NCBI GenBank assembly: GCA_022574655.1
Contig: JACZRQ010000004.1
Coordinates: 1-55,566 of the forward strand
Direction of reading: 5' to 3'
DNA from: Chloroflexota bacterium
GTDB lineage: Bacteria; Chloroflexota; Dehalococcoidia; SM23-28-2; RBG-16-64-32
DNA: 55,566 nt
Shown: positions 23,550 to 30,006 of the stretch, piece after piece
Position numbering within the stretch: the stretch's first letter is position 1
Layout: every line of letters starts with the position of its first letter
The notes under the pieces: model-generated
Database searches by the model: none
What the model saw: the letters and a program-made list of their open reading frames with translations, nothing else
Told to the model about the DNA's origin: nothing
Position numbers and translations under genes: made by a program

Positions 23550-24863
23550 CTACTCCCGCCACCTCACCGCGTACAACCGCTGTGTCGCCGCGATCCCCTT
23601 CAGCTCGTGCTCGCCTCGATCCTCGAACGACACCCCCGCCGACGTTCTCGCTAGACCCTTCACCGTGTCCGACACCAGGATCTCGCCCGGCGCAGAGGCG
23701 CTCGCTACCCTCGCTGCCAACTGCACCGCGCCTCCGTGGACGTTGTTGCCCTCTCGCACCACGTCACCGGCGTGGATGCCGAGGTGCAGATGCAGACCTG
23801 CGTCTTCGCCGATAGAGCGGCATCGAATCGCGCAGCCGATGGCCCGACTCGCCGAGCCGAACACAGCCATCACGCCGTCACCCAGCACCTTGCCCTCGAC
23901 TGGCGTACCGCCAACATCTGTGATCGCCGACCGCAGCGATGCGTCAAGCTCGCGCTCTTTCTCGCGGTACGCCACGTCGCCAAGCTTCGTCGTGAGGGCC
24001 GTCGAGTCGGCGATGTCGGTGAAGAGGATCACCGCCATGCCAGAGGGCAGGTCAGCACGGGCGTCGCTCTCGTCGTCTTCGCTCAGGAACTCGTCAATCG
24101 CGGCGTGTCCTGCTTCGCTGATGTACACAGGCCGCCGGTCTTGCAGGTCTACGAGCCGTACGTCGGAGATATCGGCCCACCTTCCTTCACTGGCAGCGAC
24201 GTTGAACTGGTCGCGCAGCACGAGGGTTGGTGCGCGAATCTTCGCGAGCCAAGGGCTCCAATCGATCTTGGCATGCGCCGCCAGCGTGAGCGCAGCGTCC
24301 CGCTGTCCGACCGCACTCTGAATAAAGCCCGCCCACTCCCCCGCCTGCTCAGTCGACCAGCCAAGCCTCTCGTGCGCGAACGTCTTCGTGAATAGCTCCC
24401 AGTCGTTCTCGATCAGGCCGCGCACGGCCAGCCCTCGGGCACTCGCATACACACGCTCGCCTATGACGTAGGGGCTGCAGACGACCAGCCGCCGCACCTC
24501 TCTGGGGTGCTCGGCCGCAACGCGCAACATCACCGGTCCGAGACCGTAGAACCCCAGCAAGTCGACCTGAGGGTACCCAAGACGCTCGATGACCGCCTCC
24601 ACGTCGCTGGCAATTTCGTGCTCCGACAGCCGCTCGATGTTTCGGTCTGAGAGGCCTTCGTTGCGGGTGTCGTAGCGGATGAGCATCCGCCTCGATGCGA
24701 GGTGCTTGTACCACCGGGCCAGCTCCGGAACGCGCAATTCTAACGAGATATGGCCCCAGCCCAAAGGCGGGCTCATGATCAGCGGCGGCTCGCCGTCGCC
24801 CATCGTCCAGAAAGCGATGCTCACCCCGTCTTTGGTCTTCGCGTACTGAATGCGCGGCTCCAT
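23550..24863 (-). CDS. Pseudo-hydrolase/class III adenylyl cyclase fusion 1
   Basis: 437 residues. The N-terminal alpha/beta-hydrolase fold (1-265) has MLIRYDTRNEGLSDR and PQVDLLGFYGLGPVMLR, where the nucleophile elbow has Tyr instead of Ser, so it is not an esterase. The C-terminal class III cyclase domain (~270-437) has metal Asp in VILFTDIADSTALT and Asp/Lys in VEGKVLGDGVMAVF. A VQLAARVAS segment places Gln where most cyclases have the transition-state Asn. It is predicted to make cAMP (or another cyclic nucleotide) in response to a ligand bound by the dead hydrolase pocket. It is the most divergent of the four paralogues and lies at the end of the cluster after the SDR gene. Confidence 0.82.
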   Translation of the reverse strand: MEPRIQYAKTKDGVSIAFWTMGDGEPPLIMSPPLGWGHISLELRVPELARWYKHLASRRMLIRYDTRNEGLSDRNIERLSEHEIASDVEAVIERLGYPQVDLLGFYGLGPVMLRVAAEHPREVRRLVVCSPYVIGERVYASARGLAVRGLIENDWELFTKTFAHERLGWSTEQAGEWAGFIQSAVGQRDAALTLAAHAKIDWSPWLAKIRAPTLVLRDQFNVAASEGRWADISDVRLVDLQDRRPVYISEAGHAAIDEFLSEDDESDARADLPSGMAVILFTDIADSTALTTKLGDVAYREKERELDASLRSAITDVGGTPVEGKVLGDGVMAVFGSASRAIGCAIRCRSIGEDAGLHLHLGIHAGDVVREGNNVHGGAVQLAARVASASAPGEILVSDTVKGLARTSAGVSFEDRGEHELKGIAATQRLYAVRWRE

Positions 24864-24894: not shown

Positions 24895-25740
24895 TTAGCG
24901 CAGTTGGAAGCCGGTAGGGTTGCGGCCCTCCAGGATGTTCTTCATCCGGTTCTCGATCATCGGCGTCATCTCCGGGTGCGTCAGTATGTAAAAGTGGTCG
25001 TCGCGGATCGCGTTGAAGACGTGGTCGGCGACAACGTCCGGGCTCAGTCCGCTCGCTAGCAATCCCCGCACCACCTCTCGCATCTCGGTCAGCGTTTGGT
25101 CCGGTTCCTGCGCCGGGTTCTCCAGCTGCGGCGGCCGGTTTCGCTCGGCGTCGATGATGTCGGTGGATACCCATCCCGGGCACAGCACCGAGGCGCTGAC
25201 CTTCGCGCCCGCAGTCTGCAGTTCGAGGTACAGCGATTCGCTCAACGACACGACTCCATGCTTCGTCACGCCGTAAGTATTGCCGCCGCCCGACATCAGG
25301 CCTGCCATGGACGCGGTGTTCACGATGTGGCCTTCGTCGCCCTGCTCTAACATGATCGGCACGAACACGCGCACTCCGTGTATCACCCCCCAGAGGTTCA
25401 CGCCCATCACCCACTCCCAGTCCGACAGCGTCTTCTGCCAGATCGGCCCGCCCTGATCGGTCACACCAGCGTTGTTGCACACCACGTGTACCGCTCCGAA
25501 CGCGTCAAGCGTCTCCTGGGCCAGCCTCTCGACGTCCGCGCCCTTCGACACATCCGTCACCACCGAGAGCACCGTCGCGCCCGCCTCGCGCATCTCGGCC
25601 TCAGCCCGCGCCAGCGCCCCTTCTTCGACGTCCGCCAGCACGACCTTCATCTCTTCTCCGGCGAATCGATTCGCCATGGCACGGCCGATGCCGCTTGCTG
25701 CTCCTGTCACTACCGCTACCTTGTCTTCGAACTCTTTCAT
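24895..25740 (-). CDS. Short-chain dehydrogenase/reductase
   Basis: A 281-residue classical SDR. NAD(P) motif TGAASGIGRAMA, NNAGV, catalytic Ser in NTASMAGLMSG and YGVTKHG supplying Tyr-x-x-x-Lys. An Asp in VLADVEEG after the second strand favours NAD(H). It has a longer C-terminal end (~30 residues; HPEMTPMIENRMKNILEGR) that appears in a Chloroflexota/actinobacterial subset. GGGAGAA precedes ATG. It sits between cyclase fusions 1 and 2, all on the minus strand with ~30-base gaps, so they may share a transcript. Substrate unknown. Confidence 0.88.
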   Translation of the reverse strand: MKEFEDKVAVVTGAASGIGRAMANRFAGEEMKVVLADVEEGALARAEAEMREAGATVLSVVTDVSKGADVERLAQETLDAFGAVHVVCNNAGVTDQGGPIWQKTLSDWEWVMGVNLWGVIHGVRVFVPIMLEQGDEGHIVNTASMAGLMSGGGNTYGVTKHGVVSLSESLYLELQTAGAKVSASVLCPGWVSTDIIDAERNRPPQLENPAQEPDQTLTEMREVVRGLLASGLSPDVVADHVFNAIRDDHFYILTHPEMTPMIENRMKNILEGRNPTGFQLR

Positions 25741-25774: not shown

Positions 25775-27206
25775 TCAGTCGTCCTCGCTCCATCTCACCT
25801 CGTACACGTGCACCGGATCCTCGAAGCCGCGCAGCTCGGTTTCGCCCCTGTCGTTGAACATGAACTGCTTCCCCGCGACGAGCTGCCGCACAACGTCTGA
25901 CACCAGTATCTCTCCGCCATCAGCTTGCGCCGCGATTCGTGCCGCGATGTTCACAGTTGTCCCGAAGAGATCGCCCCGTCCGCCGGGATCGTCCTCGGCG
26001 ATCGGTTCGCCGGCGTTGAGGCCGATGCGTATGTTGAGCGGTTCGTCGGCTGATTTATTGTGCTTGGCCAACGCATTTTGCAGCGCGATGGCACATTCCA
26101 GCGCGGCGGTCACGCTCGCGAACGATGCCATGAAGCCGTCACCCATCGTCTTCACCTCCGTGCCGCCGTGCTCTTTAAGCGACTCCCGCGTCAGCCGCTC
26201 GTGCTCCCGCAGCACCTGGCGCCCCTTGTCGTCACCCAGCCGTGCCATCATCTCAGTGTGGCCGACCATGTCCGTGAACAAGACGATGCGGAATGGCGTT
26301 GGCGTGGCGGTCGGTGAGAGCGGTGGAACCTTCCACGTCCGTGAACAAAATCGTTCGAAAGGCACCTCCCCCAATCGCCTCACCTCCCGGTGTCTCCACG
26401 GGCTTGTCATCAAGGAATGCGCGAACGGTCTCGAGGTATGAGATGTCACCAAGGAGGGGATCGGAGATGTCGCCGTCGAGCAGGACAAAGGTGCAAGTTC
26501 GGATCATCGCCGCGGCCGCCCTGACGTCGGAGATAGGCCAGATGCGGCTGTCGCGACGATGCAGCACCAGGGTGGGAGCCTCCACCTGCGGTAAGTAGGG
26601 TTTAATATCAACGGATGTCAGGAACTCCAGGTATCTGGCGGCCACATCCGACGACATCGATTGACGGACCCTATTCGCCCACCAGCGCTGAAATTCGATC
26701 GGACCGCTAGGGTAAGTTGAGTCGGCCATCGTTCTGCGAGCCATGCTCCAGTTGTCGCGGATAAGAACTAGAAGAGCCTGGATTCCACGTGCGTCCACGG
26801 TCTCCTGGCCCCAAGCGCACAAAGACCAGAGCGCCAGATGCGAGATGCGTTCCGGATTCTGTGCGGCGTACGCGACGCACACTGACGCTCCTTCGCCGTC
26901 TCCCACCAGATCGAACTTAGCGAGTTCGAGTTCATCAACGACGGCCGCCAGATCGCCAACGTGGGCCTTCAAAGTGAAGTCGTCTACGTCCCTCTGTGAA
27001 GCTGAGGATCCTCTCCGGTCTACGTTCACGAGCTGTCGATTCCGACCGAGTCTTTCAAACCACCGCCGGCTTTCAGGATGCGTCCAGTCCATCTCTAGGT
27101 TGCTGCCCCAGGCCGGGAAATCAACAATAGGAGGGCCTTCGCCCCGAGTATCGTAGGCTATGCGGGTTCCGTCTCCGCTGGTGCAGAAGCGGATCTGAGG
27201 CTCCAT
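25775..27206 (-). pseudogene. Pseudo-hydrolase/cyclase fusion 2, disrupted
   Basis: Frame one (27206 down to 26253) encodes a hydrolase-like domain (nucleophile elbow VGDGEGAS, Gly for Ser) and the first cyclase motif FRTILFTDVEGSTALTDR. It then turns into nonsense and stops. The rest of the cyclase (ARLGDDKGRQVL, VKTMGDGFMASF, NIAARIAA) is in another frame down to 25775. Before it a second copy of the first motif occurs (PTPFRIVLFTDMVGHTE). The middle ~345 bases are nearly identical to cyclase fusion 3 about 1,431 bases upstream on the same strand, whereas both ends resemble fusion 4. Gene conversion from fusion 3, landing out of frame near 26305-26312, explains it. The start overlaps the preceding stop (TGATG). 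Confidence 0.8.
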
Positions 27207-28561
27207 CAGTTGCTCTCCCGCCAGCTAACCTCGTACAGCCGCACCGGGTTCTCGAAGCCCTTGGCGACAAACTCGCCGCGATCGGCGAACAGGAACCCCT
27301 TCCCCGCCACCAGCTCTCGCACCACGTTCGAGACGAGTATCTCGCCACCGTCCGCTTTGGCTGCGACTCGCGCCGCCATGTTCACAGCCGTCCCGAAGAG
27401 ATCGCCCCGTCCGCCGGGATCGTCCTCGGCGATCGGTTCGCCGGCGTTGAGGCCGATGCGTACGTTGAGCGGTTCGTCGGCTGATTCGTTGTGCTTGGCC
27501 AACGCTTTTTGCAGCGCGATGGCACATTCCAGGGCGGCGGTCACGCTTGCGAACGATGCCATGAAGCCGTCACCCATCGTCTTCACCTCCGTGCCTCCGT
27601 GCTCTTTAAGCGACTCCCGCGTCAGCCGCTCGTGCTCCCGCAGCACCTGGCGCCCTCTGTCGTCACCCAGCCGTGCCATCATCTCAGTGTGGCCGACCAT
27701 GTCCGTGAACAAGACGGTGCGAAATGGCGTTGGAGTGGCGGTGACTGATTCGCGGACTGTCCCCTCGTCGAGGAAGTCCGTCAGCCTTGTCAGGTAGTCC
27801 GCATGATCGAAGATCCACGGTTCGGTTTTACCTTCCAGCTCCACGAACCTCGCATTGGGAAGCCTGGATGCGAGCTCTCTAACGACGCTGACCGGAATAT
27901 GTCGGTTGCCACGGCGGTGCAGCAGTAGCACGGGCTGCTGGATCTCTTCCAGGATCGGAGCTACATCTTGCTCAAGGGCGGACTCAGCATAGGCTGCAGC
28001 AACCTTCGGATCGATAGAACGTTCGAGCAGATGTGCATAGCGTCGGCGCGTTTCTCCGTCGCTTATGCCAATGGTGTCAACGAGCGTTCCTGTCGCCAAC
28101 GGCCAGTTTGCCTGGTATAGGTCCCGAACCGCCCGTACGGTCTCCCGAGGAAGGAAGTCCCCGGACGAATACGGGGCCCAGAGAGCGATTCGCCTAACGC
28201 TTTGCGCGTGAAGGTGAGCGTGAAGGAGAGAGATCGGCGAGCCATACGCGATTCCCAGGATGTCGTACTCCTCCAGGCCGAGCGCCTCGATAACGGCTTG
28301 AGCGTCGAGAGCGTGCGCTTCCTGCGCGTAGTCTAAAACGTCTTGGGAAGAATCGCCGATGCCCCGAGGGTCGTATCGCACCACCATTCGCTGCTCGCTC
28401 AGGCGCTCGTAAAACTCTACGCCTTCGTCGAATTGCGTTTCCATCCGAATGGTGATCGCCCAGCCGGGGAAAATGACGAGCGGCGGCTCGCCGCGTCCGT
28501 ATACCGTATATGCGATACGTGCTCCATCAGCGCTGCGGCAGTAGCGGATCTCCGGCTGCAT
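27206..28561 (-). CDS. Pseudo-hydrolase/class III adenylyl cyclase fusion 3
   Basis: 451 residues from an ATG overlapping the stop of fusion 4 as TGATG. The hydrolase-like domain (1-280) has VVRYDPRGIGDSSQD and YDILGIAYGSPIS; the elbow has Ala for Ser. The cyclase domain (~285-451) has FRTVLFTDMVGHTEMMARLG, EVKTMGDGFMASFASV and VNMAARVAA. All catalytic groups (two Asp, Lys, Asn, Arg) are present, so an active cyclase, most likely forming cAMP (Lys in VKTMGD fits adenine). Its cyclase-coding DNA is the apparent donor of the tract that broke fusion 2. No membrane segment, so it is cytosolic. Confidence 0.85.
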   Translation of the reverse strand: MQPEIRYCRSADGARIAYTVYGRGEPPLVIFPGWAITIRMETQFDEGVEFYERLSEQRMVVRYDPRGIGDSSQDVLDYAQEAHALDAQAVIEALGLEEYDILGIAYGSPISLLHAHLHAQSVRRIALWAPYSSGDFLPRETVRAVRDLYQANWPLATGTLVDTIGISDGETRRRYAHLLERSIDPKVAAAYAESALEQDVAPILEEIQQPVLLLHRRGNRHIPVSVVRELASRLPNARFVELEGKTEPWIFDHADYLTRLTDFLDEGTVRESVTATPTPFRTVLFTDMVGHTEMMARLGDDRGRQVLREHERLTRESLKEHGGTEVKTMGDGFMASFASVTAALECAIALQKALAKHNESADEPLNVRIGLNAGEPIAEDDPGGRGDLFGTAVNMAARVAAKADGGEILVSNVVRELVAGKGFLFADRGEFVAKGFENPVRLYEVSWRESN

Positions 28562-29904
28562 CAGTCGCCCTCGCCCCACCGCACCTCGTACACCCGCACT
28601 GGGTCCTCGAACCCCCGCAGTTCCGTCTCACCCCGATCGTTGAACAAGAAGTTCTTCCCCGCCACCAACTCCCGCACGACGTTCGAGGCCAGTATCTCGC
28701 CGCCCTCCGCCTTCGCCGCGATCCGGGCCGCCATGTTCACTGCCGTTCCGAAGAGGTCGCCGCGGCCGCCCGGATCGTCCTCCGCAATCGGTTCGCCTGC
28801 GTTCAGACCAACTCGCACCTTGATCGGTTCGTCCGCCGAGTCGTTGTGTTGGGCGAACACCCTCTGAATGGCAATCGCGCACTCGAGCGCCTTCGTCGCC
28901 GACGTGAACGAAGCCATGAAGCCGTCGCCCATCGTCTTCACCTCTGACCCGCCGTGCGCGGACAGCGCCTCTCGGACTATCCGCTCGTGCTCGCGAAGCA
29001 GGTCACGCGCCTTCGCGTCACCAAGCCGCTCGGTGAGTGCGGTGGAGCCCTCGACATCGGTGAACAGGATCGTGCGAAAGGCACCGGCGTCAAGACGAGG
29101 CTCCTCCGCCGCAGACCCGACTTCTACACCAAGAAACTCTAACATCGTCGTGTGCAGCTGGGCTAAGTTATCTTGGTAGAAGCCCTCCACCTCGTAAAGA
29201 CGCGCGTTCGGGATTCCAGCGGCCAGCCGTCGTGTTTCATCCATCGGCAGCTTGAGTCCGCTGTGCCGAACGACCAGGGTCGGTGCCTGTATCTCTGATA
29301 GCAGACTAGAAAGGTCGATCTGTTCATCCGCTTCAATCATCCGGGCCAAGACCTCTTGCGTGATGCACTCCCTAATGAATTCGGCGTATCGGGTCGACCC
29401 TTCAAAGCCGAACCCAAAAGCCTGAGCCGAAACGTTCTCGGTGAACATCTCCCAGTCGGCGTCCATCAACTGCGCTAACCCCTGTCCACGCTGACTTTCC
29501 CCGCCACGGGCGAAGCAGTTCAGGAGCACAAGGTGGGATACACGCTCCGGGTGGCTAGCCGCGTAAGCAATAGCAGGCAGGCCGCCTACCTCCAGGCCCA
29601 GCAGCGAGAACTGCTTCAGGTGCAGGTGCTCGGCTACGGCTTCGAGGTCGCGAACTCTCGCTTCCAATGAAAAGTCATCCACGTCTCGGTCGGACAGACC
29701 GACTCCCCTCGTGTCAAACCGTACCAGCATACGCTGGGCGGCGAAGGCGGCGAAGGCCGCCCTAAAGATGGGTATCTGCCACTCCCGCTGGACGTGGCTT
29801 GTTATTGGCTGCGAAGACCAGACGACTGCCGATCCCTCGCCGTACGTAGCGAACGCGATGTTCACTCCGTCGCTCGTCTTCGCGTACTTGATGCGCGGCT
29901 CCAT
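28561..29904 (-). CDS. Pseudo-hydrolase/class III adenylyl cyclase fusion 4
   Basis: 447 residues. ATG at 29904 gives the MEPRIKYAKT start shared with fusion 1 (MEPRIQYAKT); another ATG three codons earlier is possible. The hydrolase-like domain has VRFDTRGVGLSDRDVDD and FSLLGLEVGGLPAIAYA, where Glu stands in place of the Ser nucleophile. The cyclase has FRTILFTDVEGSTALTERLG, EVKTMGDGFMASFTSA, VNMAARIAAKAEGG and ends FEDPVRVYEVRW. Catalytic residues are complete. It is the first gene of the minus-strand array, so a promoter should lie in 29905-30000, facing the rsgA leader. Confidence 0.85.
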   Translation of the reverse strand: MEPRIKYAKTSDGVNIAFATYGEGSAVVWSSQPITSHVQREWQIPIFRAAFAAFAAQRMLVRFDTRGVGLSDRDVDDFSLEARVRDLEAVAEHLHLKQFSLLGLEVGGLPAIAYAASHPERVSHLVLLNCFARGGESQRGQGLAQLMDADWEMFTENVSAQAFGFGFEGSTRYAEFIRECITQEVLARMIEADEQIDLSSLLSEIQAPTLVVRHSGLKLPMDETRRLAAGIPNARLYEVEGFYQDNLAQLHTTMLEFLGVEVGSAAEEPRLDAGAFRTILFTDVEGSTALTERLGDAKARDLLREHERIVREALSAHGGSEVKTMGDGFMASFTSATKALECAIAIQRVFAQHNDSADEPIKVRVGLNAGEPIAEDDPGGRGDLFGTAVNMAARIAAKAEGGEILASNVVRELVAGKNFLFNDRGETELRGFEDPVRVYEVRWGEGD

Positions 29905-30006
29905 AGCGGTCATTCTACGCCATCAGCAACGGCCACCAATTGACGAATCCCGCAGCTTCGTGTACTGTTCTCGAAGCGCATATAACGTGAAAGGAGGCTC
30001 TTCCAG

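Follow-up and report, generated by a model that had tools for sequence, protein, structure and literature searches.

A gene for a hydrolase-cyclase fusion, fusion 2 (F2), located within a 55,566-nucleotide stretch of Chloroflexota DNA (hereafter the window), appears to have been broken by a non-reciprocal conversion from its neighbour, fusion 3 (F3). The exchange would have been homologous at one end and joined by microhomology at the other, as one instance of a recurrent exchange of cyclase domains, and we give this reading a probability of about 0.8. F2 would originally have been an ordinary fusion of a hydrolase-fold domain and a class III cyclase, in which about 350 bp of the cyclase domain was replaced by the corresponding segment of F3, the gene immediately upstream. 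The join would have added 67 nt net and thereby broken the reading frame. The direction of transfer, from F3 to F2, was inferred from the intact frame of F3.

The window corresponds to contig C140 in a metagenome bin (G000) of 2.65 Mb and 156 contigs, 76.9% complete with 4.8% contamination and without reads, and the best-matching relatives of this genome are labelled Chloroflexi or Dehalococcoidia. The genes concerned form a run on the minus strand: F4 (28,561-29,913; 450 aa), F3 (27,206-28,561), F2, a short-chain dehydrogenase (24,895-25,740), which is the next gene in the probable operon, and F1 (23,550-24,863), a hydrolase-fold protein with a divergent cyclase that took no part in the conversion. 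The probable ATG start of F3 at about 28,561 overlaps the stop of F4. Since both the F4/F3 and the F3/F2 overlaps read TGATG, a stop overlapping the next start, F4, F3 and F2 are probably co-translated. Each fusion consists of an alpha/beta-hydrolase-fold half matching PF00561 and a class III cyclase half matching PF00211, and 34 matches to PF00211 were found in the whole genome. Rv1900c/LipJ of Mycobacterium tuberculosis likewise joins an alpha/beta-hydrolase to a class III cyclase, in the same domain order as the F-type fusions. Among proteins of solved structure it is the closest relative found for the cyclase domain (PDB 1ybt and 1ybu; E 2.3e-30 for 1ybt). In contrast to Rv1900c/LipJ, the Chloroflexota fusions are present in many copies per genome, and most of their hydrolase-fold halves lack the nucleophile Ser.

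In F2 the two halves lie in different frames, which overlap by about 250 nt. The hydrolase-fold half (26,253-27,206, minus strand; 317 aa) carries a frame-shifted tail after FTDVEGSTALTDR and terminates as ...FRTILFTDVEGSTALTDRHANAIPHRLVHGHGRPH at the stop at 26,253. The cyclase half (25,775-26,503, minus strand) is open for 242 codons in the +1 frame, reads ...TATPTPFRIVLFTDMVGHTEMMARLGDD..., and lies above the PF00211 cut-off with 85.2 bits.

The probable conversion tract and its borders

The tract derived from F3 extends over 25,958-26,305 on the minus strand, and its counterpart in F3 lies at about 27,389-27,737. Between 25,958 and 26,296 the two genes are 96.5% identical (12 differences in 339 positions), in agreement with the near-identity reported in the first-pass annotation, the coordinates of which were right within a few bases. 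Among all family members examined in the genome and the sampled relatives, the next best match to the tract is 72.9% identical. A whole-genome DNA search gave no third copy of the tract; a quarter of the sequence may be absent from the assembly, and a third copy in that part could be the true donor.

At the lower border the identity between F2 and F3 drops to about 75% beyond position 25,957 or so. The sites variable among F2, F3 and F4 are nearly all of F3 type down to about 25,958, and are thereafter mixed, mostly of F4 type or unique to F2. This border, at about 25,955-25,961, falls within homologous sequence and is seamless. An F3 strand, or DNA from a sister cell, would have paired with its homologous counterpart in the F2 cyclase and been resolved here, at about 25,957.

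The upper border is of a different kind. F2, the recipient, reads CTCACCGACCGCC and F3, the donor, reads TCACCGCCACTCC, with the six nucleotides ACCGCC common to both (26,306-26,311 in F2, 27,738-27,743 in F3, minus strand), so that the donor stretch including the microhomology is 27,389-27,743. Two paralogues of F2 with the same TDRLGD sequence (L008 and L010) read CTCACCGACCGCCTCGG at the junction, and all six nucleotides therefore fit both parents or the inferred ancestor. From simple base matching, the chance of a 6-nt overlap at random joins is estimated, as a rough figure and not by computation, to be well under 1%. Because homology runs out at this end, the hydrolase halves being unrelated at the DNA level, the other end of the copied strand would have been joined at this microhomology.

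As the tract starts downstream of the first cyclase motif of F2 itself, the motif was duplicated and the cyclase shifted by +1. The remnant (FTDVEG..., 26,329-26,345, minus strand) stays in the hydrolase frame, with FTDVEGST starting at 26,345, and the imported FTDMVGHT starts at 26,278, 67 nt away. F3 has a single motif and an intact frame. The first-pass annotation had noticed both versions of the motif at one border, one of them out of frame, and this was correct; the frame-breaking end, which it had placed on the left, is the high-coordinate one, upstream on the coding strand.

A junction with one homologous end and one microhomology end fits the signature of homology-facilitated illegitimate recombination (HFIR), which is known in Streptococcus pneumoniae, Acinetobacter baylyi, Pseudomonas stutzeri and Escherichia coli and typically leaves junctions of 3-10 bp of microhomology in a RecA-dependent manner (PMC3240628). 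The 6 nt in F2 fall within this range. In contrast to HFIR, no foreign DNA is visible in F2, the donor being the adjacent paralogue or a sister copy. About 350 bp would have been copied with little net gain in length, whereas in HFIR an insertion of about 1 kb is accompanied by a deletion of about 1 kb. This junction is the single observation behind the proposed HFIR route, and a scar of the same kind would be expected from template switching during replication. Since recA, comEC and dprA are present in the genome, uptake of sister-cell DNA is possible, and copying from F3 within the chromosome would leave an indistinguishable result.

Because the tract is two-bordered and non-reciprocal, either a conversion or two exchanges must be considered. 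As direct repeats spaced 1,431 bp apart, F3 and F2 have an arrangement that would allow unequal crossover between them, or tandem duplication followed by deletion, and unequal crossover had been offered alongside conversion in the first-pass annotation. A single crossover, however, changes the gene number by duplicating or deleting the hydrolase half of F2, of which exactly one is present, and would not be expected to return to non-F3 sequence at 25,957 as the tail does. Duplication with a precise second exchange needs two events. We consider this route quite improbable.

We also considered that the overlapping frames might be rebuilt into the full fusion by programmed +1 frameshifting. The frame overlap of about 250 nt would permit this, but the inserted segment repeats the first catalytic motif, the shift occurs exactly at the recombination junction, and the relatives have a one-frame fusion; this explanation is extremely improbable. 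RNA structure at the junction gave no signal (z 0.22).

As the window belongs to a metagenome bin without reads, a strain chimera at the junction is conceivable, in which two strains or repeat copies contiguous in no cell were fused during assembly or binning. The 156 contigs, the 4.83% contamination and the tandem repeats speak for such an artefact. Collapse of repeats, named in the first-pass annotation as the finding that would overturn its reading, is unlikely in view of the 12 sites at which the tract differs from F3, and the 6-nt overlap at the junction is shorter than the usual k-mer joins of assemblers. Both halves of F2 lie within one operon with normal flanks, and an independent analogous event is found in a single-contig genome (G022, below). 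An artefact is thus very improbable, and conversion remains the preferred reading.

Ancestry and present state of fusion 2

The hydrolase half of F2 has its true kin among orthologues from other genomes. Its nearest counterparts, found in four genomes, are 59, 53, 51 and 50% identical in amino acids; each belongs to an intact fusion of 453-477 aa, and three of the four have FTDVEGST, matching the remnant in F2. In the tree of hydrolase halves, F2 groups with the four orthologues (SH-aLRT 96), while in the tree of the tract it groups with F3 (support 99). Forcing the F2 tract together with three orthologues costs 162 log units and was rejected (AU p 1.5e-4). The conversion from F3 to F2 proposed in the first-pass annotation is upheld by this tree conflict together with the two borders, the intact single-motif F3 and the intact fusions in relatives.

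The resemblance of the flanks to F4, which the first-pass annotation had also described, is seen in the FTDVEGST segment (83% over 59 nt) and weakly in the tail (79%), but not in the hydrolase half, which is about 36% identical to that of F4. The tail was considered as proof of F4 ancestry and rejected as unsupported: in the tree of this short 180-nt tail, grouping of F2 with F3 was not rejected (AU p 0.51).

No synteny was found between the locus in the window and the loci of the orthologues. The comparison with relatives gave four intact F2-type fusions at loci not syntenic with the window, and the orthology of F2 is proposed from sequence similarity. A contig scan revealed neither the same species nor the same junction elsewhere, the genus being represented by this genome alone. 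Two of the orthologues, L105 (G013:C223) and L122 (G016:C87), have the same neighbouring genes in both genomes; these neighbours are 96-99% identical in amino acids (93% at four-fold sites) and the fusion only 73%, for which unusually fast change or allele replacement is offered as a reading. Within the genome, the paralogue most similar to the hydrolase half of F2 (L073, C52:29,934-30,807; 52%) adjoins comEC. Its similarity ends after residue 234 with no cyclase before the contig end, and it is possibly a truncated remnant.

Our default reading is that F2 has most likely become a pseudogene, or else a hydrolase-fold domain severed from its cyclase. The first-pass annotation had called F2 truncated, and this is true of the hydrolase frame. 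The cyclase half, however, is still open and by inspection appears to keep the catalytic Asp, Lys, Asp, Asn and Arg (in FTD, VKTMGDG and NIAARI), so that loss of cyclase activity should not be concluded. The hydrolase-fold half has GDGEG at the G-x-S-x-G site, and thus lacks the nucleophile Ser of an active hydrolase.

An alternative outcome is that F2 was divided by the conversion into two functional genes, one for a hydrolase-fold protein and the other for a soluble cyclase started at the TTG at 26,374. In addition to the 242 open codons and the retained catalytic residues, this fission is favoured by a candidate internal start (26,372-26,387, minus strand), in which a strong Shine-Dalgarno-like GGAGGTGA at 26,387-26,380, an 8-mer occurring only 5 times in the 55 kb, precedes by 5 nt the in-frame TTG at 26,374-26,372, predicting a 199-aa product. 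The site, however, was chosen post hoc, TTG is a weak start, and the pre-tract stretch in the cyclase frame is unrelated to any cyclase. Neither half of F2 contains a further stop or frameshift, but the same is expected in 29-53% of neutral simulations, and the lack of further stops was rejected as a sign of function. Outgroup polarisation assigned to the F2 lineage six changes in the tract, and five to F3. Of the six, 4 are replacement and 2 silent, the split expected in the absence of constraint; together the changes in F2 and F3 suggest neither constraint nor decay. All six changes in the F2 lineage are G:C to A:T, too few for interpretation. The branch lengths of a quick tree (0.036 vs 0.0037) had hinted at faster evolution in the F2 tract, but this polarisation did not confirm it (6 vs 5 changes). 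Fission is unlikely, and the pseudogene remains the default.

Proposed exchange of cyclase domains in the family

The single-contig genome G022 (CP070630.1) carries an F2-type gene, L048 (G022:C1:595,988-597,349), of which the hydrolase half is 83% identical in amino acids to that of L047 of G021, and the sequence downstream also follows L047. The cyclase of L048, on the other hand, is 76% identical in DNA to that of L047 vs 91% to that of L087, a paralogue in its own genome with a hydrolase half only 38% identical in amino acids to that of L048. A clade of the L047 and L048 cyclases was rejected (AU p 3e-56). By sequence comparison we identify L048 as a second exchange of the same domain, in-frame and double-bounded; the lower border is approximate because the final 60 nt or so are alike in all three genes. 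Within G000, the paralogues L009 (C40) and L007 (C99) have hydrolase halves 23% identical in amino acids and cyclases 89% identical in DNA. The hydrolase half of L007 carries an in-frame TAG, and in-frame stops are also found in the family members G020:C204, G010:C65, G012:C163 and G013:C170. Birth and death of the fusions may be ongoing, as these stops suggest.

Among 102 fusions, sampled for their resemblance to the hydrolase half of F2, the identity of the cyclase halves at four-fold sites was 0.481 within vs 0.447 between genomes, and that of the hydrolase halves was 0.349 vs 0.353. The difference-in-differences was +0.037 at four-fold sites (+0.058 in amino acids), a modest effect among pairs that are not independent, and none of 2,000 label permutations reached it. 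The within-genome excess of the cyclases survived leaving out any genome (jackknife) or the tandem pairs, as well as restriction to pairs with hydrolase identity below 0.45. Since the hydrolase halves serve as a control, codon usage does not account for the excess.

In the same family, Ser is present at the nucleophile column in 23 of 100 hydrolase-fold domains, the alignment being loose there, and F3 has GIAYG at this site. Most of the hydrolase-fold halves, as judged from these residues, look like non-catalytic pseudoenzymes, possibly ligand-sensing. A tentative view, to which we give somewhat less than even odds, is that the Chloroflexota family forms a receptor repertoire, in which the cyclases are homogenised in each genome by domain-confined conversion while the sensing halves diverge, and F2 is a failed exchange. 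The F2 event would then look like a single unsuccessful instance of a wider cyclase-copying habit in the family.

Gene conversion in bacteria is already known; exchange confined to one domain is the lead of greater interest. Concerted evolution of prokaryote paralogues, such as tuf and others, was described in a survey of full-length genes (PMC6053082). As in those cases, within-genome paralogues are closer here than orthologues, silent sites included, but the effect is limited to one of the two domains in the gene, the cyclase. In Vibrio, HFIR was proposed for T6SS effector/immunity modules and Rhs loci, in which displaced remnants are left (PMC5361080). These loci share with the fusions a conserved anchor and a variable partner domain; there, however, it is the variable end that is swapped and the anchor that remains, whereas here the conserved output domain is copied between genes. 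A literature search gave no paper on hydrolase-cyclase fusions in Chloroflexi.

In F2 an uncultured lineage has preserved a clean natural trace of conversion, one-sided and between neighbouring bacterial paralogues, with donor, recipient and junction all visible. For annotation, orthologues in the hydrolase-fold/cyclase family should not be named by the cyclase domain. The wider pattern is testable: a genome can carry as many as about 20 sensor-cyclase fusions, among which conversion appears to spread the output domain while the sensor is kept distinct. If true, sharing of the output domain would explain the conflicting gene trees of the two halves.
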